Source: a virus
Virus record (IMG/VR): IMGVR_UViG_3300025785_000009
Coordinates: 1 to 64,000 of that record
DNA: 64,000 bases
Direction: 5' to 3' (one strand)
A program made the position numbers and the translations under genes. Numbering within the stretch: the stretch's first letter is position 1; the number at the start of each line of letters is the position of its first letter. The notes beneath the pieces are model-generated. The model was not told the origin of the DNA. It worked only from the letters and a program-made list of their open reading frames with translations, and searched no databases. Shown here piece by piece: positions 19-18,480 of this stretch.

Positions 19-95
<77 letters not shown>

Positions 96-154
96 ACGGA
101 AAGCCGGTTACGTTTTTCATTTCGTCTAAGTTTCCCTAGTACAATTTTTCCGGC

Positions 155-181
155 ATAGTGGGAAGGACGCCGCCCCACTAT
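155..181. other. Perfect 8-bp hairpin between tRNA-Pro and tRNA-Met
   Basis: ATAGTGGG at 155-162 pairs perfectly with CCCACTAT at 174-181 around an 11-nt loop. There is no T-run, so it is not an obvious intrinsic terminator. It lies in the roughly 115-nt spacer between two tRNAs and may be a processing element or part of a small RNA. No coding signal is visible in the spacer. Confidence 0.45.
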
Positions 182-211
182 CGTTTACACAATCAATCAG
201 GCGTCATAGCT

Positions 212-286
212 TGGTGGAAATAAGTAGATTCGAACTACTGACCTGCGCCGTATGAAGGCGATGCACTACCGCTGTGCTATATTTCC
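212..286 (-). tRNA. tRNA-Met (CAU)
   Basis: Cloverleaf with acceptor GGAAATA/TATTTCC, T-loop TTCGAAT, anticodon loop TTCATAC (CAT) and encoded CCA. The sequence alone does not separate elongator Met, initiator Met or lysidine-modified Ile2. A second CAU tRNA lies at 9284-9358. Confidence 0.9.
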
Positions 287-293
287 GATTAAT

Positions 294-419
294 TTACTTG
301 GTTAATAACTCTATCGCTTGTTGCACTAAATCCAATTGGATATGTAGTCGGTGCGATATTTCTATGGCATCTAAGTTTCTACTTAGAAGTTCTTTGACTT
401 GCGCTAGCAATGGTGACAT
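294..419 (-). CDS. Small hypothetical protein (41 aa)
   Basis: A 41-residue frame between tRNA-Met and tRNA-Ser. The longer frame to 590 runs through tRNA-Ser and is a shadow, so the ATG at 419 is the only plausible start. The peptide (begins MSPLLAQVKELL) is predicted helical and could hold one helix-turn-helix-like unit, but it is too short to assign. The Shine-Dalgarno is weak. It fills the gap almost exactly, which is the main support. Confidence 0.35.
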   Translation of the reverse strand: MSPLLAQVKELLSRNLDAIEISHRLHIQLDLVQQAIELLTK

Positions 420-460
420 ACATATATAACGCCTAGTGCTGTCAAAAAGTTTACAATGTT

Positions 461-550
461 TGGCGGAAACGGTGAGATTCGAACTCACGGTGCCTTTCGA
501 CACGACAGTTTTCAAGACTGTTGCAATAAACCGGACTCTGCCACATTTCC
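461..550 (-). tRNA. tRNA-Ser (UGA)
   Basis: Type II tRNA of 90 nt with a long variable arm, acceptor GGAAATG, anticodon loop CTTGAAA (TGA), T-loop TTCGAAT and encoded CCA preceded by discriminator G, as usual for tRNA-Ser. Confidence 0.95.
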
Positions 551-557
551 TAAATTT

Positions 558-633
558 TGGGGTAACTGATGGGATTCGAACCCACGACAACCGGAATCAC
601 AATCCGGGATTCTACCACTGAACTACAGTTACC
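558..633 (-). tRNA. tRNA-His (GUG)
   Basis: Cloverleaf with anticodon GTG, T-loop TTCGAAT, encoded CCA, discriminator C73 and an encoded G-1 facing it, the tRNA-His identity pair. Confidence 0.95.
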
Positions 634-635
634 AT

Positions 636-710
636 TGGTCTGCCCTGCAGGAATCGAACCCACATTAAAAGGGTAGAAGCCTTCTGTATTATCCATTATA
701 CTAAGGGCAG
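636..710 (-). tRNA. tRNA-Arg (UCU)
   Basis: Acceptor CTGCCCT/AGGGCAG, anticodon loop CTTCTAC (TCT), T-loop TTCGATT, discriminator A and encoded CCA. It is the first tRNA of this leftward group, facing away from the rightward gene at 730. Confidence 0.93.
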
Positions 711-715
711 ACATT

Positions 716-723
716 AATAAATA
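716..723 (+). promoter_or_regulatory. Late-promoter-like octamer 6 nt before the ATG at 730
   Basis: AATAAATA on the plus strand resembles the T4 late element TATAAATA. It ends 6 nt before the start codon, so a late transcript would begin one base before the ATG, leaving no room for a Shine-Dalgarno. Confidence 0.4.
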
Positions 724-729
724 GATCAT

Positions 730-1644
730 ATGAACAATCAATCACTTGCGTTCACGTACAAGTATTACAACATACCCAACCACCCAGTGGAAGGTAGATT
801 CCAAATACGTTTTTCTCCAATCCGACGTGCATTGATGCCGTGGAAGGATGAGGTTGCCAATACTATACAGGCCATATACCATTCTGCAGACAGTCCACTG
901 TTTGTGGCCTTGAGCGGTGGTATTGACAGCGAAATTGTTGCAAGAAGTCTGTTAGAAAATTCCATACCGTTTTCAGCAATAACAATCGAGTACACCAACG
1001 GGTTCAATGCTCACGACATTCAATATGCTCGAGATTTTTGTAAAAAATATTCAATCGAGCATCATACTGTCACCGTTGATCCAAATTATTTGTACACTAC
1101 CAAAATGGAACAGTACATTGATCATGGATACTGTGCTAGAAATTTATACAGATACCTGCAACTGTTTATATTAGAGACTGTTGAAAATCTAAATGGTACT
1201 GCTGTCTTGGGCGCCGAAACTCAGGCCTACTACTTGCTGGATGGTCAACTGCACATAAGATATTCCACCGAAATACTAAACACCATCCGGTGGTGCAAAA
1301 CAAACAATGTTGATCACTGTGTGAATTTTTTCTTGCACAATCCCGAATTGTATGCTGCGTATATGCAAATGCCCGACGTACAGCAAGTGTTAAACAATCC
1401 ACTGGCTTGCAAAAATACTGTTGAACTGGATCGCACCCGTAACGTGCCAAGCGGAGCCAGTCCTGAAAAAGAATTGGTGTATCGATTGGTGTGGCCCGAT
1501 CTAACAGAACGGCCCAAGTACAACGGATTTGAAGAAATCATTCAAATCCGTATCCACGCACAAGATCAACTGCGAGCACGTTTTCCTGAAGTGGGCTTTG
1601 TTTATATACCAGTTAACAAAATTAAAACTCAACTGGGTATCTGA
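730..1644 (+). CDS. PP-loop ATP pyrophosphatase family protein
   Basis: A 304-residue protein with the N-type ATP-pyrophosphatase signature SGGIDS at residues 62-67, preceded by a hydrophobic strand (LFVAL). This motif is shared by asparagine synthetase C-domains, NAD synthetase, QueC and tRNA-modifying PP-loop enzymes, which adenylate a carboxyl, carbonyl or tRNA base. The substrate cannot be read. No glutaminase domain is present, so it is not a full asparagine synthetase. It is one of two PP-loop genes in this accessory region (the other at 7293-8438) and faces the tRNA series. The start is the ATG directly after an AATAAATA octamer; no Shine-Dalgarno is visible. Confidence 0.75.
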   Translation: MNNQSLAFTYKYYNIPNHPVEGRFQIRFSPIRRALMPWKDEVANTIQAIYHSADSPLFVALSGGIDSEIVARSLLENSIPFSAITIEYTNGFNAHDIQYARDFCKKYSIEHHTVTVDPNYLYTTKMEQYIDHGYCARNLYRYLQLFILETVENLNGTAVLGAETQAYYLLDGQLHIRYSTEILNTIRWCKTNNVDHCVNFFLHNPELYAAYMQMPDVQQVLNNPLACKNTVELDRTRNVPSGASPEKELVYRLVWPDLTERPKYNGFEEIIQIRIHAQDQLRARFPEVGFVYIPVNKIKTQLGI

Positions 1645-1645
1645 T

Positions 1646-1719
1646 TGGAGCGGGACAGGAGAATCGAACTCCTAACCGAAGATTGGAAATCTGCTGTTTT
1701 ACCATTAAACTAGTCCCGC
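1646..1719 (-). tRNA. tRNA-Gly (UCC)
   Basis: Acceptor GCGGGAC/GTCCCGC, anticodon loop TTTCCAA (TCC), T-loop TTCGATT and encoded CCA. Its first 10 nt overlap the 3' end of the radical SAM gene at 1710-2819, whose TAG stop is tRNA nucleotides 8-10. Confidence 0.95.
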
Positions 1720-2819
1720 ACAAACACATCTTCTACTACGTTACGCATAATGAGTTGTTTAAACTCGGCTGGATCTGCTGCTTTTGGCGCACAAAATCCA
1801 CAGCGACAATACTCTTTCTTACATTTGATAATGGGCATACCTGAGGCCAATTGTGTTTTCAATGTTGCAATGATCTTTCCATCATCAACGTATCCTAGTG
1901 GCTCAACACGACCAGTGGTACTCATACGGCAATCTTTGTTGGTAAAAACTGCACGATCTACCTGTCGCAGGAACAAAAAGAACCAGTTCACGCTACACGA
2001 CCAACCTTCAAATCCTTGACGCTGCACAAAGGAGACATTGCTCTTTAGGTCACCATTTACACTCAAACGCCGTCCGCCACAACAGGCGCGACCTTCGTCA
2101 ATGGCCTGTACTGTGTCTTTGGTTTCAGTTATGGGAATCATCCAAAATGTTTTTAATTCGTTAAACTGTTGGCCGGTGTAAGTCCATTCCTCACCGCGGT
2201 TGTCCAAGGGCTTGACCACGTGACGTATGTTGTGATACTTGCAAAAATCTATTATAGACTTGCTGTCATCAAAGTATACAGGTTCGTTGTGCATCATAAC
2301 AATGCATTTGAATCTACGATTGTGTTCCTTGAGATACAAAATATTGTCCAAAAATTGTTGTTTTTGTTTGGGCAAATTCTCTGCGTGGTAGCTTACTGTA
2401 AACTCATCCACCAACGGAACTATTTCAGCCCAACGTCTGGGACCAACAATGGCATTGGTAGTACAGGTCACTGTCAGGTGCCAGCGATCCTGATATGGTT
2501 CGTAGCGACTGTGACACTCACGCAGGATCTCTACTATGTCAGGATGAAATACACTTTCACCACCGTAAACATTTAACACAACTTTGCGCTGACTAGGTCG
2601 TTTGTGTTGCATATATTGATCCACATACCTGTACATAAAATCAATTGATGCTAGGCATTCTTCCAAAGGAGGATGCTGAGTTGTGTTGTCGTGTCCCCCA
2701 TCTAGACCACTTGGGCAATATGAGCAATCCAAATTACATAATTTGGTCAATTCCCAATCTAGTAAAAAGGCCGGTACATTGGCAGGATCTAATGCAAATG
2801 CTATTGAGTTAACTGTCAT
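1710..2819 (-). CDS. Radical SAM protein with C-terminal cysteine cluster
   Basis: 369 residues. The canonical CxxxCxxC motif that binds the catalytic [4Fe-4S] cluster is at C28, C32 and C35 in CNLDCSYC. A GGE-like motif (NVYGGES) follows. The C-terminal region has a CCGG pair and a dense set (CKKEYCRCGFC) typical of SPASM or twitch auxiliary Fe-S domains, which favours peptide or anaerobic-maturase-type chemistry over simple SAM cleavage. The substrate is unknown. The start overlaps the upstream nitronate-monooxygenase-like gene by 4 nt, so the two are probably translationally coupled. Its stop lies inside the tRNA-Gly gene. Confidence 0.8.
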   Translation of the reverse strand: MTVNSIAFALDPANVPAFLLDWELTKLCNLDCSYCPSGLDGGHDNTTQHPPLEECLASIDFMYRYVDQYMQHKRPSQRKVVLNVYGGESVFHPDIVEILRECHSRYEPYQDRWHLTVTCTTNAIVGPRRWAEIVPLVDEFTVSYHAENLPKQKQQFLDNILYLKEHNRRFKCIVMMHNEPVYFDDSKSIIDFCKYHNIRHVVKPLDNRGEEWTYTGQQFNELKTFWMIPITETKDTVQAIDEGRACCGGRRLSVNGDLKSNVSFVQRQGFEGWSCSVNWFFLFLRQVDRAVFTNKDCRMSTTGRVEPLGYVDDGKIIATLKTQLASGMPIIKCKKEYCRCGFCAPKAADPAEFKQLIMRNVVEDVFVRD

Positions 2820-3757
2820 AATTCGCTTGTCAAATATTCTACTATCTCTTTTACTGTTTGTATCTTGGTAATATGTTTGACACCAGCACCAGCATAGATA
2901 TGCCCCACTGTGCCGTCACCCTGTATACCTGTGGTTAACGAACGTTCTCTGTTCCAATCACCTTCGGCAATTTTGTCGTTTACCACCGTATCTAAGTCGC
3001 CCAAGATCAAAGCATTTTGTTTTGTGTCAGGCAATTGTGTTGTGCCGTTTGCCGAGATCATTGATTGTTTGGCAGCTGTGCTTAGATTACTTTCTTGGCT
3101 GGCTGCAAATAGTGTACCTACCCCAACCGCAGTTGCACCCGATTCCACATAGTCTCGAACTTGCTTGGCTGTGCCTACTCCGCCGTACGGTATCAAAATT
3201 GCCGACGGAGTTAACTTTTTCTGTGCCTGGAACAACTCCCAGGTTGTGTAAGTATCTCCACTGGATCCAGCCGAATCACTGCCCTTAAGGCAGTAAGCAA
3301 AATTAAATTTGCTGTATTCGGGATTACGTCTACGATACATAACCTGCATCGGGCTTATATATTTGAGCATACCATTCATCACTGTGGCATAGTTGTTGCC
3401 TAACCGGAGCTTGATGCGTTCCCAATCGTTTAGTGTATCTCTGGGATTGTTGATGGCATATACTTCCAAGTGACTGACTTGATGTTCCTTGAGTATACGC
3501 ATTAGTGTTCGATCAAAGAAATGTTCAACACCGATTGAAAATACCAAATCGCTGGCACCAGCCGCGTGTCTAAATTCTTTAAGCAACGCATTGACCTGAT
3601 CGTAATTTTTTTCTGCCACTTCAAATTGCACAAACTCACTGACTACCAAGCTGGGCACAATGCCTGCTTCCCAACAGGCCAAGGCCAATGGCAAGTCTGA
3701 CACTTGATTCATTGCCGCTTCTACAATGGGGTATCTTGAATTAAAGTATGTTTTCAT
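2816..3757 (-). CDS. Nitronate monooxygenase / 2-nitropropane dioxygenase-like TIM barrel
   Basis: 313 residues. The N-terminus (YPIVEAAMNQVSD) matches the family's start at the first strand of an FMN TIM barrel. The phosphate-binding region is seen as IPYGGVG...AVGVGTLFAASQES, and a late YAGAG loop fits the FMN site. Family enzymes oxidise alkyl nitronates using FMN; related proteins include enoyl-ACP reductase FabK. The phage substrate is unknown. The start codon lies only 5 nt after the encoded CCA of tRNA-Trp, leaving no Shine-Dalgarno. It overlaps the downstream radical SAM gene by 4 nt, which suggests joint function. Confidence 0.75.
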   Translation of the reverse strand: MKTYFNSRYPIVEAAMNQVSDLPLALACWEAGIVPSLVVSEFVQFEVAEKNYDQVNALLKEFRHAAGASDLVFSIGVEHFFDRTLMRILKEHQVSHLEVYAINNPRDTLNDWERIKLRLGNNYATVMNGMLKYISPMQVMYRRRNPEYSKFNFAYCLKGSDSAGSSGDTYTTWELFQAQKKLTPSAILIPYGGVGTAKQVRDYVESGATAVGVGTLFAASQESNLSTAAKQSMISANGTTQLPDTKQNALILGDLDTVVNDKIAEGDWNRERSLTTGIQGDGTVGHIYAGAGVKHITKIQTVKEIVEYLTSEL

Positions 3758-3762
3758 ATGTT

Positions 3763-3836
3763 TGGCGGGACTCCAGGGAATCGAACCCCGATCTGCGGTT
3801 TTGGAGACCGATGTAATGCCATTATACCAGAGACCC
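3763..3836 (-). tRNA. tRNA-Trp (CCA)
   Basis: Anticodon loop CTCCAAA (CCA), T-loop TTCGATT, discriminator G and encoded CCA. The acceptor GGGTCTC/GAGTCCC has one T-T mismatch. Its 3' CCA is 5 nt from the ATG of the next gene. Confidence 0.9.
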
Positions 3837-3842
3837 AGATAC

Positions 3843-3918
3843 TGGTAGGACGTGACGGGTTCGAACCGCCGACATTCACGGTGTAAGCGTGACGCTCTAC
3901 CAGCTGAGCTAACGTCCT
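3843..3918 (-). tRNA. tRNA-Val (UAC)
   Basis: Acceptor AGGACGT/ACGTCCT, anticodon loop CTTACAC (TAC), T-loop TTCGAAC, encoded CCA with discriminator A. Confidence 0.95.
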
Positions 3919-3920
3919 AA

Positions 3921-4041
3921 TTAAAACTTTGCGTTCAGTGCTTGAACCTGTGGTAGCCCTGACTCTTCCTGGCTCCTCTCCACGTCGTCCGGATTCCTAG
4001 TGGAGTTTAGAGTTGTTCCAGTGTAGCTACTACGCAAATCT
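3921..4041. other. 121-nt spacer between tRNA-Val and tRNA-Gly
   Basis: I see no convincing ORF, tRNA or terminator here. The minus strand has a GGTTCAA segment resembling a T-loop, but its flanks do not form a 5-bp T-stem and no cloverleaf can be drawn. It could hold a small stable RNA like those in the T4 tRNA cluster, but nothing demonstrates this. Confidence 0.3.
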
Positions 4042-4117
<76 letters not shown>

Positions 4118-4126
4118 TTTGAAACT

Positions 4127-4202
4127 TGGCGCTCCCGACCGGATTCGAACCGGTGTACTTGCCGTGAAAGGGCAATGTCCTAGGCCTCTAGACGACGGGA
4201 GC
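4127..4202 (-). tRNA. tRNA-Glu (UUC)
   Basis: Acceptor GCTCCCG/CGGGAGC, anticodon arm TTGCC-CTTTCAC-GGCAA (TTC), T-loop TTCGAAT, encoded CCA. The first 23 nt also encode the C-terminus and stop of the peroxiredoxin-like gene at 4180-4641. Confidence 0.96.
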
Positions 4203-4678: not shown

Positions 4679-5629
4679 TTAACTTTTACGGATGCTGTCT
4701 ACCAAACCTGGTAAAAATACGGAATCATACTTGGCATACAATGGTTCTGTCAATGCTTCGAACTTGGCCATTTCTTCTGCTGATAATTCTTTGTATGTTA
4801 CACCAGTTTCAGCTGGATCTGCTTTGGCCAGCTTGTCGCTGTCTTCAACGGACCACTTGCGCTCTAAACGTGCAGCATTGATAGCAGCTTGGCTTAGTTT
4901 GGCTTGTAGATCTTCGCTTAAACTGCTCCACCATTTCTCGCTAACGATAATGCTGGTCAAGAACAAGCTGTGTTTTGTATCTGTAACATAACGCTTGTTG
5001 GTCTTGTTTACAGTGGCCAACAAACGTGGAACTGTTGTGTCAACTGCATCGTGCTGGTCGCCTTCTGCGTGAACAGCTGCCCAGTAGTCTTCAATAGCGT
5101 GTGGATCAGGTTGACCGCCAATGGCTTCGATTGTGTCGATACCGATTGGGTTTGTGCCTGTATAAAAACTTAGATTTTTAAAGTCTGCCAAAGATTTGAT
5201 TTCTTCGTCACTGGCAACAATACGGAAACCACCTGAGTATGTAAAAGCTAAACCACGTGCTGGTGATTTTTCTTTTAGCTCGCTCAACATAGCTTGGCCG
5301 ATTTCGCCTTCTAGAACTCTAGTAGCGTGGTCGTGATCTTTAAATAGGAATGGTAGTTCCAAAGCCATAAAAGCTGGAACGTTCCACTTCCATAATTGGC
5401 TAATATGCAACTGGCTCATTTCAATTTTGCCTTGGTCCATATAAACCATTGGATTTTCTCTTGTGCCATTGTTGTGCTTTTCAGCATATTCTGTAGCAGT
5501 AAGAATTTCGATGTCAATTGCACCGTTTGTGCTGTTGCGTACTTCTTCAGCAAAAGCTTCAGCTGTACGCAAAAATAGATGTACTGGCTCGTGAGCAATT
5601 AACCACTTAATTTTGTTTGTTTGTTGCAT
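4679..5629 (-). CDS. TRAP transporter DctP-like substrate-binding protein without signal peptide
   Basis: 316 residues matching the TRAP extracytoplasmic solute-binding family (DctP): KIKWLIAHE at the start, LWKWNVPAFMALELPFLFKDHDHATRVL, GLAFTYSGGFRIV, and a middle IGGQPDPHAIEDYWAAVHAEGDQHDAVD. Family proteins capture carboxylates in the periplasm and hand them to DctQM membrane subunits. Here the protein starts directly at the mature domain with no signal peptide, and no DctQM genes are nearby. It would stay in the cytoplasm or enter virions. The start at 5629 has a good Shine-Dalgarno (CAGGAG) and a TATAAATA element 23 nt upstream, so late expression is likely. Confidence 0.8.
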   Translation of the reverse strand: MQQTNKIKWLIAHEPVHLFLRTAEAFAEEVRNSTNGAIDIEILTATEYAEKHNNGTRENPMVYMDQGKIEMSQLHISQLWKWNVPAFMALELPFLFKDHDHATRVLEGEIGQAMLSELKEKSPARGLAFTYSGGFRIVASDEEIKSLADFKNLSFYTGTNPIGIDTIEAIGGQPDPHAIEDYWAAVHAEGDQHDAVDTTVPRLLATVNKTNKRYVTDTKHSLFLTSIIVSEKWWSSLSEDLQAKLSQAAINAARLERKWSVEDSDKLAKADPAETGVTYKELSAEEMAKFEALTEPLYAKYDSVFLPGLVDSIRKS

Positions 5630-5891: not shown

Positions 5892-5975
5892 TGGTGGAGA
5901 ATACTGGGATCGAACCAGTCGTGTCAAAGACGGCGGATTTACAGTCCACTGCATCACCATTGATGCTTCTTCTCC
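5892..5975 (-). tRNA. tRNA-Tyr (GUA)
   Basis: Type II tRNA of 84 nt with extended variable arm, anticodon loop CTGTAAA (GTA), T-loop TTCGATC, encoded CCA with discriminator A. The last acceptor pair is mismatched. Confidence 0.92.
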
Positions 5976-6003
5976 AAATTTATGTGTTCTCTGTTGCCAA
6001 AGA

Positions 6004-6105
6004 ATATAGCAAAGCCTACTAGTTTGTCAAATGGACGACTATGAGTCTTTTCAATTGACCTGCGCTTTCCAGGCGCGACTATTCGTCTAATAGACTTTGC
6101 TATAT
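6004..6105 (-). ncRNA. Candidate structured RNA with long closing stem
   Basis: TATAGCAAAG (6005-6014) pairs perfectly with CTTTGCTATA (6095-6104), plus one further pair at 6004/6105. Inside, GACGA (6034-6038) pairs with TCGTC (6083-6087) and GCGC (6062-6065) with GCGC (6073-6076). These nested helices look like a folded RNA. No ORF covers it. It lies directly upstream of tRNA-Tyr in the leftward transcript. T4 also carries small stable RNAs in its tRNA cluster; whether this is related is unknown. The strand is inferred from the neighbours. Confidence 0.45.
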
Positions 6106-6119
6106 ACTTATTTTACTCC

Positions 6120-6215
6120 CGACGTTGTCGCCATCAGTTTGATCCAAGTACCCGCCCCTTTATGGCTTTTTTAGAGTGGTCCAACGGAGCTCGTTTCCTA
6201 CGTCCACTTTACTGC
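6120..6215 (-). other. Further hairpins between the RNA candidate and the 52-codon gene
   Basis: CGAC/GTCG at about 6120-6130 and a longer hairpin with AGTGG/CCACT arms at about 6174-6209, containing an internal AACG/CGTT helix. No T-run follows on the minus strand and no credible ORF was found. It may be the 3' end of the small gene's transcript or part of the adjacent RNA. Confidence 0.3.
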
Positions 6216-6374
6216 TTATTTTTTAGAACGGGCCTTTTCTAACAGTCGGGCCTGTTCAACCAACGCCTGCACTTGTGCCTGCGCTCTTGCTACCTTTGCT
6301 TCCATCAAAGCAACCTTCTGCTCTGGAGAAAGAAAGAACTTGTTTTCTTTTTCTAGTTTTTTATGTTCTAACAT
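6216..6374 (-). CDS. Small coiled-coil protein (52 aa)
   Basis: 52 residues, strongly helical and charged, starting MLEHKKLEKENKF and ending in RSKK, with a central alanine/glutamine-rich helix (ARAQAQVQALVEQARLL). It is probably a short coiled coil. The start at 6374 is supported by a strong AAAGGAG Shine-Dalgarno 6-7 nt upstream. It lies behind a consensus sigma70 promoter and a roughly 200-nt structured leader ending in a terminator-like hairpin, so its expression is probably attenuated. The function is unknown. Confidence 0.75.
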   Translation of the reverse strand: MLEHKKLEKENKFFLSPEQKVALMEAKVARAQAQVQALVEQARLLEKARSKK

Positions 6375-6392
6375 TACCTTCTCCTTTAAAAA

Positions 6393-6421
6393 CAAAAAAC
6401 CCTGGGTGTTTAGTCCAGGGT
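6393..6421 (-). terminator. Intrinsic terminator or attenuator before the 52-aa gene
   Basis: On the minus strand ACCCTGG (complement of 6415-6421) pairs with CCAGGGT (complement of 6399-6405), followed at once by a T-run (complement of 6393-6398). It lies between promoter and Shine-Dalgarno, so it would stop transcription before the gene unless prevented. Confidence 0.65.
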
Positions 6422-6573
6422 CTTAATTAAAATATATGGTTAGATTGATATCTTAATTAAGACCCCCAGGTTCACGATCACTATTAATCATTGTAAACAC
6501 TGACCAATAGGCTAGCCCGCCTAGGTTTGGCTGTGGTGCGGATAGATGTTTACAAGTTCTAAGTGTCATAATG
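6399..6573 (-). ncRNA. Riboswitch- or attenuator-like 5' leader
   Basis: Roughly 200-nt leader of the 52-aa gene. TTGTAAACA (6491-6499) pairs with TGTTTACAA (6547-6555) as a perfect 9-bp closing stem. Nested inside are CCAA/TTGG and TAGGC/GCCTA helices. Next, GGGTCTTAATTAA (6418-6430) pairs perfectly over 13 bp with 6453-6465. That helix uses GGGT (6418-6421), which the terminator stem also needs, so the two are mutually exclusive. A folded domain, antiterminator, terminator and gene in that order is the layout of a transcriptional riboswitch or attenuator. It matches no class that I recognise. Confidence 0.6.
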
Positions 6574-6579
6574 TTATCA

Positions 6580-6608
6580 ATTATACATTTATTTATCTTT
6601 TGTGTCAA
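6580..6608 (-). promoter_or_regulatory. Perfect consensus sigma70 promoter TTGACA-N17-TATAAT
   Basis: -35 TTGACA is the complement of 6603-6608, -10 TATAAT the complement of 6580-6585, with a 17-nt spacer. Transcription would start near 6573 and run through the structured leader. Confidence 0.85.
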
Positions 6609-9358: not shown

Positions 9359-10264
9359 TTATTCAAATACTCCTGTGAATTGTGCGCTCATTGCAGTAAA
9401 CATTCGTGGATCGCGCTCAATCAACACAAATCTGCGATTACGTTTTTGGGCCGCTAATCCGGTACTACCCGAACCAGCAAAAGTGTCTAAGACTAAATCT
9501 CCTTCGCGGCTCAACAGTTCAATCAGGTATTCCAACAACTCTACAGGTTTCTGTGTAGGATGAATCTTTTTGCCAATGCCGCCACTAAATGTAATAGTAT
9601 TAGGCACTACGCATTGTACAACATCACCAGATCGTTTGCGATCTTTCAACATTTGCTGTGCTTCTTTTAATGCTGTTGCAAACACCTGCTCAATGTCTTG
9701 TTCGTTATCGGCATCTTTGGCATACTTGTAGACAATACTTGAAATCTTATCTGCAGCTGTGTACCGTTCAACAATAGTGCCACGTGCTGCATCAGCATTG
9801 AATGTACGATCGCCTTTAGGTTTGATGCCCCACAAGATATATTCGCAACCACTAACCAAATTAACCTGTCGATTGAACGGAACTGCCGCAGGCTTTTTCC
9901 AAGTAATAACACGCTTGGGTTCAAAGCCGGCCGTTTCCATTATCCGCCACAGGTAACTGATGTATTGATCACTGATGAATATAGCAAAGGTGCCGCCTTT
10001 TCTCAACTTCTTGAACCAGAACGCCGCCCAGGATTCCATCTGTGCCACAAACTCGTCGTGTGTGACACTATCCCAATCTTGTTCAAACGATTCTGAAAAC
10101 TTTTGACTGTGAATGGTGTTTTTGTTTTTGCCAGTTTCTGGATCAATCCATTCGGGCTTGGCACCACCCTCGGAGATATTGTAAGGCGGATCCGTTAATA
10201 GCAGATCAACCGAAAGGTCAGCAATGTCAGCATCTGCCAACAACATATCTTTGTTTAGTAGCAT
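9359..10264 (-). CDS. DNA methyltransferase, beta class (DPPY)
   Basis: 301 residues. DPPY (25-28) precedes the SAM-binding motif DTFAGSGSTG (about 260-269), the order that defines beta-class amino-methyltransferases. The HPTQKPVELLEYLI motif is typical of that class. DPPY usually marks N6-adenine methylation, though N4-cytosine is possible. It may protect phage DNA from host restriction. A perfect sigma70 promoter ends exactly 6 nt before the ATG, so its mRNA should be leaderless and early. The stop codon abuts tRNA-Met. No cognate nuclease is recognised. Confidence 0.88.
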   Translation of the reverse strand: MLLNKDMLLADADIADLSVDLLLTDPPYNISEGGAKPEWIDPETGKNKNTIHSQKFSESFEQDWDSVTHDEFVAQMESWAAFWFKKLRKGGTFAIFISDQYISYLWRIMETAGFEPKRVITWKKPAAVPFNRQVNLVSGCEYILWGIKPKGDRTFNADAARGTIVERYTAADKISSIVYKYAKDADNEQDIEQVFATALKEAQQMLKDRKRSGDVVQCVVPNTITFSGGIGKKIHPTQKPVELLEYLIELLSREGDLVLDTFAGSGSTGLAAQKRNRRFVLIERDPRMFTAMSAQFTGVFE

Positions 10265-10270
10265 CTATAG

Positions 10271-10299
10271 ATTATAGCTTATTGAGAATTTTGTGTCAA
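10271..10299 (-). promoter_or_regulatory. Perfect sigma70 promoter TTGACA-N17-TATAAT (methyltransferase)
   Basis: -35 is the complement of 10294-10299 and -10 the complement of 10271-10276, with a 17-nt spacer. Six nt separate the -10 from the ATG, placing +1 on the A of ATG. The palindrome TTGTGT-CAAT-ACACAA (10291-10306) overlaps the -35 and may be an operator. The -35 lies in the 3' end of the upstream gene. Confidence 0.85.
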
Positions 10300-14807: not shown

Positions 14808-15922
14808 TCTACTGTTTCCTCTTTTTTGGTTTTCTTTGTTTTTTCTTCAACTACTGCATCAACTGCTGCTTCAAGCTCTTCGATGTTGGCTTGCTTTTGA
14901 TGTGGGTTGGCAACAAAATCTACCATGGCTCGATCCAAACAAGAATCCTCGTTGCGTTCCCACGCCTTACGGAACTTCTTGATAATTTCACCATCGGCCA
15001 ATGTGTACACCAGACTGTTGCCTTCTTTCTTCAGCAGGTCTTTGCCTTCAAACAAGTCTACTAGACCTGAGTACGGATTCATACCTTCTTCGTATGGAAT
15101 CTTGACCTGGACAGATTCAAATGGTTTAGCGTAACGAGTTTTCATAATCTTACAAGCGGCGCGAATACCTTTGACTTCTGAGATCTTGTTGCCGTCTTCG
15201 TCTTCTTTGAGCTTTAACTTACGCATAGCAACCACAATAGAGCTGGCATAGATAAAGCCCTGACCACCCGAGATCTTGTCATCGGGATCAAACATATCTT
15301 GGCTAGCGTATGTGTGTGCTGTGGTAACCAAGCCAATGTTTAAACTGCCAAACATATTGACACAGTTACGAACCAAGGCAGCCAACGCTTTGGGTTTACG
15401 ACCCATATCGCCCTTCATATCGCCTGCTTCAAATTGGTTAACGTCTGTGGGTGTCAACAACATACCCAATGAGTCAACCACAAACAACACTTTGGGACGT
15501 TCTGTTTCTGGTAGAGTTTTGTATTCTTTAACAAACTCTGAAATCATCTTGCCCACATCGTCAATCATGGCCATATTTAATTTTAGCAGTTTGTCCTCGC
15601 TGGTGTCTACGTCTAGTGCGTGTAACCATTTTTCATCCAATGCATTTTCACTATCAACCAAGATAACATAAATGCCTTGCTTTTGTGCGTTGGATACTAG
15701 GTTACCCGAACAGATAAAACTTTTACCTGCACCAGATTCGCCAGCAAACACAGTGACTTTACCTAGCGGTACACCTTTGTGGAAGTCTCCACTGATAAGA
15801 TAATTGAGAGCATAGTTGTTGGTTGAGATCCAATCTGTTGGATCAGTAAAGCCCACGGAGATACCGTCAATGCTTTTGGTAATGCTCTTGCGAAATTTAC
15901 TTACGTCGAATGGTTTAGCCAT
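14804..15922 (-). CDS. uvsX: UvsX, RecA-like recombinase
   Basis: 372 residues (T4 UvsX is about 390). Walker A GESGAGKS at 61-68, Walker B near LFVVDSLGML, then the L1/L2 region with TTAHTY and KISGGQGFIYAS. It forms ATP-driven filaments on ssDNA for strand exchange, recombination-dependent replication and repair, together with gp32 and UvsY, both in this operon. The C-terminus is acidic and lysine-rich. Its start overlaps the radical SAM gene upstream by 8 nt. Confidence 0.95.
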   Translation of the reverse strand: MAKPFDVSKFRKSITKSIDGISVGFTDPTDWISTNNYALNYLISGDFHKGVPLGKVTVFAGESGAGKSFICSGNLVSNAQKQGIYVILVDSENALDEKWLHALDVDTSEDKLLKLNMAMIDDVGKMISEFVKEYKTLPETERPKVLFVVDSLGMLLTPTDVNQFEAGDMKGDMGRKPKALAALVRNCVNMFGSLNIGLVTTAHTYASQDMFDPDDKISGGQGFIYASSIVVAMRKLKLKEDEDGNKISEVKGIRAACKIMKTRYAKPFESVQVKIPYEEGMNPYSGLVDLFEGKDLLKKEGNSLVYTLADGEIIKKFRKAWERNEDSCLDRAMVDFVANPHQKQANIEELEAAVDAVVEEKTKKTKKEETVE

Positions 15923-17069
15923 AATGATTTTCCTTGATAAAATGATAAAAACTTTTAAATACTGCTTGACTACTTATACCTCTACGCTGATCCAAATCAG
16001 CAATTTCCTTGAGACTCTGCTCAATGTTGGCTGCAAAAGGTTGTTGAATATAGTTCAGCATATTACGTAATCCATCTTCCAATAGATATCCTGGTTGTTC
16101 AGAGATATGATATTGCAGTTTTAGTTCTACTGATTTTAACATATCTTTTGGTAAATGTCTAATGTTTAGGTATTCTGGTGTCAACAACGGGCCCAGCACA
16201 AAACTGTTGTTATGGAAACCCAATCCTTTTAGATAATATATACACTCAAATATACTCAAGTAGTTCAACAGAAAGTGCAACATATTGAATGATATTTTAT
16301 GGTTGAGCTGTTTGATTGTGCTCAAATTGTCTAAAAAGTCTCGCCACCGGCCGCCGTATCGAATGTATTCAAATTCTTCTTCGATTGAGTCAATGCTCAC
16401 AATCCAGTGTACATTCTTGAACTCACATATACGTTCAAACACACGAGTGTCCACTTTGCTGAGATTGGTATTGATACGCAGATTCACATCAGGATCCAGT
16501 AGATCCAACAACTCCAGGTTTTCCTTCATCAACAAGGGTTCGCCGCCGGCCATATACACGTGTTTTAGTGTGGGCGCACGATCCAAGATATACTGTTTGA
16601 ATTCGGCACGTTGTTCGTCAGTGGGCACCGCAGGATGTATCTTTAATTCATCAGCCCAACGACTGCTGAACTTGGGACCACAATATGTACAGGCAAAATT
16701 GCACAGGTTGGTCCAACGTACATCAACAGTTTGTAGATCAAAATTTTGTTCGGAGTAAGTAGACGGTGGCACATTTTTGAGTTCACGTATGTAAAACACA
16801 CGATCGCTAATGTGTTCAAAACCACGTTTACCTTTATCTAGATCATAACACGGAGAACAATTTGGTCCTGGCTCACGATTGATCATATTAAACTGTGTGT
16901 GCATATTGGTAGGACCCATCAAGATCTGTTCGATGCTGTTGTCTCTGATGTTGCCTAGCTTGCCAGCACTACGAATACAGTTTTTAACGTCGCCGTCAAA
17001 GTTGTACATAAGCCCAGTCCAAGGCATAGGACAAAATGCAGGGTTGGTCAATATGTCTTTGGGTGTCAT
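15915..17069 (-). CDS. Radical SAM protein with N-terminal SPASM-like cysteines
   Basis: 384 residues. Catalytic CxxxCxxC at C123, C127, C130 (CNFACTYC), followed by MAGGEPLL for SAM binding. The N-terminal 75 residues carry C13, C31, C71 and C74, set out as C-x17-C-...-CxxC around FDGDVKNC and GNI, which resembles a SPASM-type auxiliary Fe-S domain placed before rather than after the barrel. The gene at 17596 has the same layout. Such enzymes often modify peptides or carbohydrates. No precursor peptide was identified. Adjacent genes overlap on both sides. Confidence 0.85.
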   Translation of the reverse strand: MTPKDILTNPAFCPMPWTGLMYNFDGDVKNCIRSAGKLGNIRDNSIEQILMGPTNMHTQFNMINREPGPNCSPCYDLDKGKRGFEHISDRVFYIRELKNVPPSTYSEQNFDLQTVDVRWTNLCNFACTYCGPKFSSRWADELKIHPAVPTDEQRAEFKQYILDRAPTLKHVYMAGGEPLLMKENLELLDLLDPDVNLRINTNLSKVDTRVFERICEFKNVHWIVSIDSIEEEFEYIRYGGRWRDFLDNLSTIKQLNHKISFNMLHFLLNYLSIFECIYYLKGLGFHNNSFVLGPLLTPEYLNIRHLPKDMLKSVELKLQYHISEQPGYLLEDGLRNMLNYIQQPFAANIEQSLKEIADLDQRRGISSQAVFKSFYHFIKENHYG

Positions 17070-17599
17070 ATTTTGGGACCTAGGCTGATATCAGCAATGG
17101 CCAGATTGTTAGCTTCGGCCATTCTAAATGTTTGTACTAGTATTCTAGCCCACGTTGCAGGATCGGCTGCCGGTGGACTGGTAGTACCTGGTTGTGTGGC
17201 AATCCATCCAGGTCTGATCACTGTGATATGTGGACCACGTGGTGTCTTATACCTCAATTGATGTGCAGCCAACTCTAGGCTGATCTTTTGTATGCGATAC
17301 TCATCCATACCTTCCACTGTGCTGACCGGTTGCTGAGTCATCATTGTGCTGATCACCCAGATCCGTTTATCTAAATCTGCCCATCGGCGATGCATTTCAA
17401 ACAGCAATTCTGTTTGTGCAAATCCGGCCTGTGCATTGCTAACAAACAAGTCGCAAGGCTCAATGAGATCTGCTACTTTGGCAATGTTTCTGATGTTGTG
17501 TCCGGTACGCCGACTCAGGCCCACAATTTCCTCGCCATAAAATGCTTCAGCAAGTGCTTGCCCAATGCCGGCTGTGTGTCCGGTAATTGCTATTTTCAC
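17066..17599 (-). CDS. Short-chain dehydrogenase/reductase
   Basis: 177 residues, shorter than the usual 250. It has the NAD(P)-binding GHTAGIG (7-13), the NAQAG strand in place of NNAG, and the catalytic YxxxK at Y101/K105. The conserved Ser is probably in VISTMM. The C-terminal substrate lid is reduced. Fully embedded between two radical SAM genes with 4-nt overlaps, it probably oxidises or reduces their product or substrate. Confidence 0.85.
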   Translation of the reverse strand: MKIAITGHTAGIGQALAEAFYGEEIVGLSRRTGHNIRNIAKVADLIEPCDLFVSNAQAGFAQTELLFEMHRRWADLDKRIWVISTMMTQQPVSTVEGMDEYRIQKISLELAAHQLRYKTPRGPHITVIRPGWIATQPGTTSPPAADPATWARILVQTFRMAEANNLAIADISLGPKI

Positions 17600-18480
17600 T
17601 CAATGCCTCTCAGTTGTTTTTGTTCTTGTATGTATGCCTCTAAGGCTGCTTCATCGGTATTATTGACATCCAATACCGCAGGATGTTTTAGGTATGCGTA
17701 TTCGTGATCAATTCCGTGTAACTTTGCAAATGCAACAATCTCAGGTAACTGCTTTACATTCAATCTGCTGACTGTGGTCCATAAGTTTAATCGGACTGGC
17801 ATACGTTTGTATTCCATTAAATTAGCGTAGAACTTGTCCCACTTGATAGGCCAGCGTACAAAATCGTGTACGTCTTGTACGCCATCAAAACTGACGGTGA
17901 CAGTGACATCGATGCCGCGGTTGACCAAGTCTACTAATTCGGTCAATACGGTACTGCCATTTGTGTTTAGTCTGATACTTTCAACATTGGGCGGCAAATT
18001 GCGTATGACCTGTCGGTAGTTTTTGCTATGGCTGGGTTCGCCACCATTCAGGTCCAGGTGCACAATTCTCTCTTGTGGTAGTGCCCAAAAGCGATTGGTA
18101 TTGTCAACTATGGTATACTGTTTGGATTTCAAACTGCCAATCTTGGTGCTTAGGCCTTCGTGGCAGGTCATACAGGCACTATTACATACATTGTCTAACA
18201 CACCACCCACAGTTAGATAGTCTGGGCGTGTTTGTTGACTGTCAAATTCTATACTGTGTGTGCGTACACTTACGTTGGATTCGCGTTCGGTTTCTTCACA
18301 ACGTCGACACTCACTGGGCCACAGATCTTGCTCAAACTGTTCACGTATTTTGCGTAACCATACGCTAGAATCCATTTGTTCCAGGCTATCAAATTGTGCA
18401 GGGTTGACCATATGGCCACAGCGACTAACTGTTCCGTTATGGTTAAAGCGTACAAAATGATCTAGTCTAGGACAGCGCAT
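17596..18480 (-). CDS. Radical SAM protein, second N-terminal SPASM-like type
   Basis: 294 residues. Catalytic CxxxCxxC at C99, C103, C106 (CNSACMTC); NGGEPSHSKNY is the SAM-binding GGE motif. N-terminal C3, C21, C58 and C61 repeat the C-x17-C-...-CxxC layout of the neighbour at 15915, so the two are probably paralogues. It lacks the longer C-terminal extension of that protein. It overlaps the sulfotransferase-like gene by 19 nt and the SDR by 4 nt. Confidence 0.85.
   Translation of the reverse strand: MRCPRLDHFVRFNHNGTVSRCGHMVNPAQFDSLEQMDSSVWLRKIREQFEQDLWPSECRRCEETERESNVSVRTHSIEFDSQQTRPDYLTVGGVLDNVCNSACMTCHEGLSTKIGSLKSKQYTIVDNTNRFWALPQERIVHLDLNGGEPSHSKNYRQVIRNLPPNVESIRLNTNGSTVLTELVDLVNRGIDVTVTVSFDGVQDVHDFVRWPIKWDKFYANLMEYKRMPVRLNLWTTVSRLNVKQLPEIVAFAKLHGIDHEYAYLKHPAVLDVNNTDEAALEAYIQEQKQLRGIE

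Follow-up and report, generated by a model that had tools for sequence, protein, structure and literature searches.

In amino-acid operon leaders of the trpL, hisL, thrL and ilvL type, one to three regulatory codons occur in runs, and what is controlled is the biosynthesis of the corresponding amino acids. To our knowledge, the leader peptides described so far respond to antibiotics or to no more than a few amino acids. The upstream open reading frames (uORFs) toiL, whiB7 and vmlR are described as responding to multiple signals in the accessible portion of one report (PMC12121999), according to which stalls at various places in toiL of E. coli topAI-yjhQP are proposed to induce the downstream genes, ribosome-targeting antibiotics are sensed and a ribosome binding site is unmasked, and whiB7 is reported to respond also to amino-acid starvation. 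The role of phage tRNA arrays has been debated for decades (PMC10264068), and phage tRNAs have been reported to overcome tRNA-targeting defences (PMC10264068, PMC11555353, PMC12409363; accessible portions of each).

The locus presented here has its nearest counterparts in mechanism in toiL and the trpL-type leaders. Like trpL, hisL, thrL and ilvL, it has a short ORF at the 5' end and mutually exclusive antiterminator and terminator structures, and the position of the ribosome is expected to operate the switch; unlike them, its peptide contains nearly each of the 20 amino acids, and its cargo is a structured RNA, RNA2, with phage tRNA genes. Like toiL, a stall anywhere in the ORF would be expected to turn on the downstream genes, whereas toiL is non-phage and lacks tRNA genes, and an all-amino-acid composition is not described for it in the accessible portion of the source (PMC12121999). 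Our searches of the literature, with subscription titles outside their scope, found no precedent for an all-amino-acid leader peptide. From sequence comparison and modelled folding we consider it likely that the locus acts as a transcription attenuator: its leader peptide, a census of the amino acids, would respond when almost any aminoacyl-tRNA runs short, and transcription would then continue into RNA2 and the tRNA array.

The window, i.e. the whole stretch of DNA analysed, covers the initial 64 kb of a virus record, 140,816 bases in length, that encodes a UvsX-like recombinase, a terminase, a major head protein and a head protease; the source virus is a T4-like phage. All leader elements studied lie on the minus strand of the window. 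The first-pass annotation had claimed a perfect consensus promoter, and this was borne out: the sigma-70 promoter TTGACA-N17-TATAAT at 6580..6608 (-) has its -35 box at 6608-6603 and its -10 box at 6585-6580, with 12 of 12 consensus matches, and transcription is expected to start near 6573 (-). A near-identical promoter occupies the equivalent position in 32 related leaders. A second perfect TTGACA-N17-TATAAT, at 10271-10299 (-), lies just ahead of a DNA methyltransferase gene (9359-10264, -), with 6 nt between its end and the ATG, and because of this short distance the methyltransferase mRNA may be leaderless too. The window also encodes a DctP (TRAP transporter) family solute-binding protein at 4679-5629 (-; Pfam E 2.5e-39), with no signal peptide obvious by eye, and three ORFs with CxxxCxxC-type motifs that resemble radical SAM enzymes (1710-2819, 15915-17069 and 17596-18480, -).

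The promoter is followed by an ORF that the first-pass annotation had missed. This census leader ORF, MTLRTCKHLSAPQPNLGGLAYWSVFTMINSDREPGGLN (6453..6569, -), starts with an ATG at 6569 and is almost leaderless, with about 10 nt separating the ATG from the -10 box; its 38 codons hold all 20 amino acids, and its stop codon at 6455-6453 lies inside the 5' arm of a 13-bp antiterminator helix. Related leaders were gathered from loci with relatives of a downstream 52-codon gene and conserved leader motifs, and the family of the window's leader (the AYW family) comprises 32 distinct leaders, the window's own counted in. In all 32 an ATG follows a consensus-like -10 box at a distance of 6-10 nt, and the ORF stays open in frame despite unequal lengths. 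Moreover, pN/pS is 0.47 in frame vs 0.94 when shifted by one base (228 pairs of relatives, 4-22% divergent). Since in-frame conservation across the family and the pN/pS values both point to translation, the leader is very likely a coding sequence, and the locus would thus possess the translated short ORF expected of ribosome-mediated attenuators. The peptides range from 27 to 58 residues across uncultured-phage loci. In one locus (L028) the intact leader is preceded, about 1.1 kb upstream, by a second copy at 3302-3324 that is apparently decayed (ATG to ATA), and neither antiterminator nor terminator was seen there.

The antiterminator spans 6417..6466 (-). Its 5' arm (6466-6448) consists of the last codons and the stop codon of the leader ORF, and its 3' arm (6435-6417) overlaps the 5' arm of an intrinsic terminator (6394..6422, -), in which 6422-6415 pairs with 6405-6398 and a T-run occupies 6399-6394. 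Both the 13-bp helix and the competing terminator hairpin with its T-run had been noted in the earlier reading, and both hold on the minus strand: the helix is perfect (GGGTCTTAATTAA at 6465-6453 with TTAATTAAGACCC at 6430-6418), and the terminator stem, CCCTGG 6420-6415 with CCAGGG 6405-6400, has positions 6420-6418 in common with it. The two structures exclude each other, in the window as in its relatives, and the antiterminator overlaps the end of the ORF.

Two lines of evidence support that this competition has been maintained. First, the last codons of the leader (GGGTC, GGGTTCC etc.) pair with the terminator 5' arm in all 29 complete members, and the arm sequences vary with the pairing kept (GGGTCTT/AAGACCC, GGGTTTAAG/CTTAAACCC, GGGTTCC/GGAACCC). 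Secondly, in a swap control that allowed no choice of helix, end regions scored 18.5 against their own terminator arm and 13.5 against that of another leader (z 16); non-redundant anchored antiterminator arms gave z 8.5. The stop codon lies inside the antiterminator 5' arm in one class of leaders, the window's included, and 25-34 nt past the start of that arm in class b. There the antiterminator loop contains a stable structure (-8.9 vs -3.2 kcal/mol for shuffled sequences, in 40 of 41), which spans the stop codon in 41 of 41. By these comparisons the leader is very likely a transcription attenuator.

We explored the effect of ribosome position by equilibrium pairing calculations in which a footprint of assumed size was masked at each codon in turn. 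For a ribosome on the stop codon or in the last six codons, the predicted probability of the terminator, P(terminator), was 0.89-0.99, and with the ribosome at least 14 codons upstream it was 0.42-0.47. For the window's leader it was 0.00-0.27 at codons 2-31 (at most 0.02 at codons 18-31), 0.63 at codon 32 and 0.98-0.99 from codon 33 onward. Ribosome position is therefore predicted, in silico, to decide the outcome, as in other attenuators. P(terminator) of the naked RNA averages 0.47, and consequently the antiterminator must fold first in about half of the leaders; since the value reaches at least 0.5 in 32 of 68, the default state would depend on folding kinetics. Two observations count against the simplest form of the model: a ribosome at the stop codon of class b leaders disturbs the loop of the antiterminator and not its arm, and the first Glu of the window's leader is at codon 33, a position for which the masked fold already favours the terminator.

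The leaders found ahead of RNA2 fall into dissimilar families that share promoter, antiterminator and terminator. They were detected by pairing and promoter, not by composition, and six mis-detected leaders without a plausible ORF were removed by eye before the statistics. Of 54 non-redundant peptides (less than 50% identical), 31 hold the complete set of 20 amino acids; the mean of 19.11 types compares with 15.87 when windows of equal length are taken from phage ORFs (Z 12.8) and with 16.89 in draws from the pooled composition of the leaders (Z 12.2). The result was replicated in newly scanned loci, where 11 of 18 peptides held all 20 vs 0.46 expected (Z 6.4), with peptides similar to the first set left out and two apparent mis-detections counted in. 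These two were dropped from the combined set of 68, in which only the coding frame shows the excess of types (Z 13.5; the other forward frames give -1.6 and -0.9, and antisense a slight 3.2). Almost the whole census lies ahead of the antiterminator arm, with 18.82 types vs 15.8 (Z 15.4), and only 0.34 types occur solely after that point; when a 12-nt margin is allowed for the leading edge of the ribosome, the prefix holds 17.5 types vs 15.2 expected, and 1.6 types occur only later. The rule is strong, not absolute: Cys is missing in 11 of the 32 AYW-family leaders, and in a few leaders that are short (27-34 residues) the count drops to 14-18 types.

A stretch of repeated codons for one regulatory amino acid, or for a few, was not found; nearly each of the 20 is present instead, and the leader is therefore a variant among ribosome-mediated attenuators rather than a member of the trpL type. 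The conserved Trp had suggested that this amino acid alone is sensed, an idea that was given up once under-dispersion was seen for Cys, His, Tyr, Asp and others as well. The codon TGG occurs 112 times in the coding frame against 58 and 33 times in the two others, about a twofold excess over the next-best frame. T-box-like pairing of UGG with tRNA CCA ends was considered and set aside.

The distribution of rare amino acids bears on what is sensed. It could be hypothesized that the ORF is a general ribosome-stall sensor of the toiL kind, responding to translation inhibitors, lost initiation or host shut-off, with amino-acid supply not the main signal. Any stall upstream of the antiterminator arm would yield the same folding outcome, and toiL is a known uORF with this logic (PMC12121999, accessible portion). 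Such a sensor, however, needs no set composition, yet rare amino acids tend to occur exactly once per leader: Trp has a mean of 1.13 copies with a variance of 0.14 and is absent from none of the 68 peptides. Rare residues also relocate rather than vanish. When residues were shuffled within alignment columns, which keeps homology and breaks coordination between positions, the observed diversity exceeded this null in three families (z 5.5, 6.5 and 5.2); in the same families Cys is spread over 6, 11 and 5 columns and yet is usually single, its count varying by 0.28, 0.12 and 0.07 vs 0.57, 0.89 and 0.56 expected. The amino-acid census is thus very likely under selection, a general stall sensor appears improbable, and the leader likely senses aminoacyl-tRNA shortage.

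According to the attenuator model, the strong promoter would recruit RNA polymerase and a ribosome would initiate at the AUG on or adjoining the 5' end. When all aminoacyl-tRNAs are plentiful, the ribosome would trail the polymerase closely and get to the last codons and the stop codon, where it would cover the 5' arm of the antiterminator (in class b, the hairpin in the antiterminator loop), so that the terminator folds and transcription stops. Since nearly every amino acid occurs before the antiterminator arm, a shortage of almost any aminoacyl-tRNA would stall the ribosome upstream of it; the antiterminator would then form first, and the polymerase would read through, so that RNA2, the small protein where its gene is present, and the tRNAs are made. 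The sequences show the ORF, the competing structures, their conservation, the census and the position ahead of tRNA genes; we infer that a ribosome held up by uncharged or missing tRNA gives the signal and that transcription continues into the tRNA genes, and any function of RNA2 is likewise inferred. If this is true, nearly all of the twenty single amino-acid drop-outs should induce, and loss of a single-copy codon should delete exactly one response. A leader selected for all 20 amino acids would be a general gauge of translation supply that is readable from sequence alone.

The in-frame conservation with its pN/pS of 0.47, together with conserved peptide motifs such as QPxLGxxAYWS and NSDRxPE, would also be expected if the peptide were a functional small protein and the terminator before the next gene an ordinary processing or polarity element. 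We regard this as very unlikely. The dissimilar leader families have only census, antiterminator and position in common, the antiterminator arms co-vary, and the peptide has no match in Pfam. Moreover, the census property is lacking in control small ORFs: all 20 amino acids were present in only 6 of 273 other small ORFs of the same loci, and in 0 of 46 members of the downstream small-gene family.

The first-pass annotation had read the leader as riboswitch- or attenuator-like, with a nested domain closed by a perfect 9-bp stem. The domain is present in the window as described, within the leader ORF (6491..6555, -), with the outer stem formed by TTGTAAACA at 6555-6547 and TGTTTACAA at 6499-6491 and an inner hairpin of TAGGC 6523-6519 and GCCTA 6512-6508. 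The leader as a whole folds at -54.2 vs -40.8 kcal/mol for shuffled sequences, beating all 200 dinucleotide shuffles (z -3.42). The inner hairpin is invariant within the AYW family; the domain is confined to that one family, is absent as such from the others and does not overlap the antiterminator switch helix. Covariation among homologues is strong for the antiterminator pairing and weak for the outer stem (own partners 17.0 vs swapped 16.0, sd 0.48), which was set aside as a covarying aptamer helix. Rfam 15, at the gathering threshold and at an E-value of 5, gave only tRNAs and sub-threshold matches, which argues against a known riboswitch, T-box or large RNA. The attenuator half of the reading stands, with its exclusive and covarying arms, and the riboswitch half is not supported, since the leader codes and finds no Rfam match. 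That the nested domain binds a metabolite and controls the terminator is very improbable, its perfect 9-bp stem and unchanged inner hairpin notwithstanding, given its location in coding sequence, its absence as such from other families, the lack of overlap with the antiterminator and an outer stem barely above swapped partners.

Downstream of the switch, the window has a 52-codon gene of the LSPEQKxALMEAKxxRA family (6216..6374, -), preceded by a Shine-Dalgarno sequence AAGGAGAAGG at about 6386-6377; its product has no match in PHROG or Pfam. This coiled-coil gene and its Shine-Dalgarno sequence are there as first annotated. However, the gene is optional, being absent from five loci (L023, L025, L030, L031, L045), and because RNA2 and the tRNA genes are constant, the leader is not to be read as a switch for the small gene.

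RNA2 (6001..6208, -, boundaries approximate) is a conserved non-coding stretch constantly found downstream of the leaders, with an AACGAG hairpin, a GGGCGG motif, covarying stems and a closing hairpin of GTATATAGCAAAG and CTTTGCTATATTC near 6109-6097 and 6013-6001. Its consensus fold shows strong covariation, which contributes 17 of 26.8 kcal/mol in 56 non-redundant sequences of one class. It is followed by tRNA-Tyr (5895..5975, -; Rfam 35.4 bits, anticodon read as GTA, missed by ARAGORN) and then, at 19..4202 (-) with genes in between, by tRNAs for Glu, Gly, Val, Trp, Gly, Arg, His, Ser, Met and Pro. Among the loci whose flanks are complete, 73 of 75 have same-strand tRNA genes at most 2.2 kb downstream of RNA2; a mean of 8.7 tRNA genes downstream compares with 0.44 upstream, and the first tRNA is a median of 261 nt from the RNA2 start. 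The leader module is very likely associated with tRNA genes, as judged from this arrangement. One locus (L060) has a promoter-like site directly before RNA2, which counts against supply by readthrough.

The module of leader, RNA2 and phage tRNA genes was found in more than 200 uncultured-phage loci, and the RNA2 pattern has at least 120 matches in viral contigs; two narrower patterns gave 79 and 78 stretches. Searches of GenBank phages by DNA and by peptide gave no credible match (best E about 2), and the module was therefore found in no cultured phage; nor was RNA2 found convincingly among GenBank phages, and its 8 matches in species genomes resemble ordinary coding DNA and were taken as chance. 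RNA2 has no match in Rfam, the GOLLD and ROOL models included, and would be a new, widespread phage RNA family. It resembles ROOL and GOLLD as a structured phage RNA adjoining tRNA genes (73 of 75 loci), a likeness limited to the neighbourhood, and is about 210 nt long here whereas many GOLLD RNAs exceed 800 nt (PMC12286853).

If the attenuator model is true, phage tRNAs are made when any aminoacyl-tRNA runs short, through starvation or through tRNA-cleaving defences. The reports that phage tRNAs overcome tRNA-targeting defences may hint at why a pan-tRNA sensor would stand ahead of such an array. Cleavage of any tRNA would stall the ribosome on the census ORF and release the replacement tRNAs with RNA2. 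The likely cargo is shared with those systems, namely tRNAs that may replace damaged host tRNAs, whereas the accessible portions of the reports treat the tRNAs and not a sensor that switches them on (PMC10264068, PMC11555353, PMC12409363). That the module evolved as a universal detector of aminoacyl-tRNA loss against tRNA-destroying defences, with RNA2 acting on translation or tRNAs, is a tentative idea that we hold to be possible rather than probable, and both the counter-defence role and the role of RNA2 are speculative.

RNA2 itself varies between loci. In two of them (L028, L050) tRNA-like sequences are apparently inserted in the closing hairpin, reminiscent of the phage tRNAs reported in some GOLLD linkers (PMC12286853). 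In three others (L024, L034, L038) more branched hairpin units follow downstream, with GAYGAA and TTGACGGG-like motifs, and RNA2 may therefore be longer in some phages.
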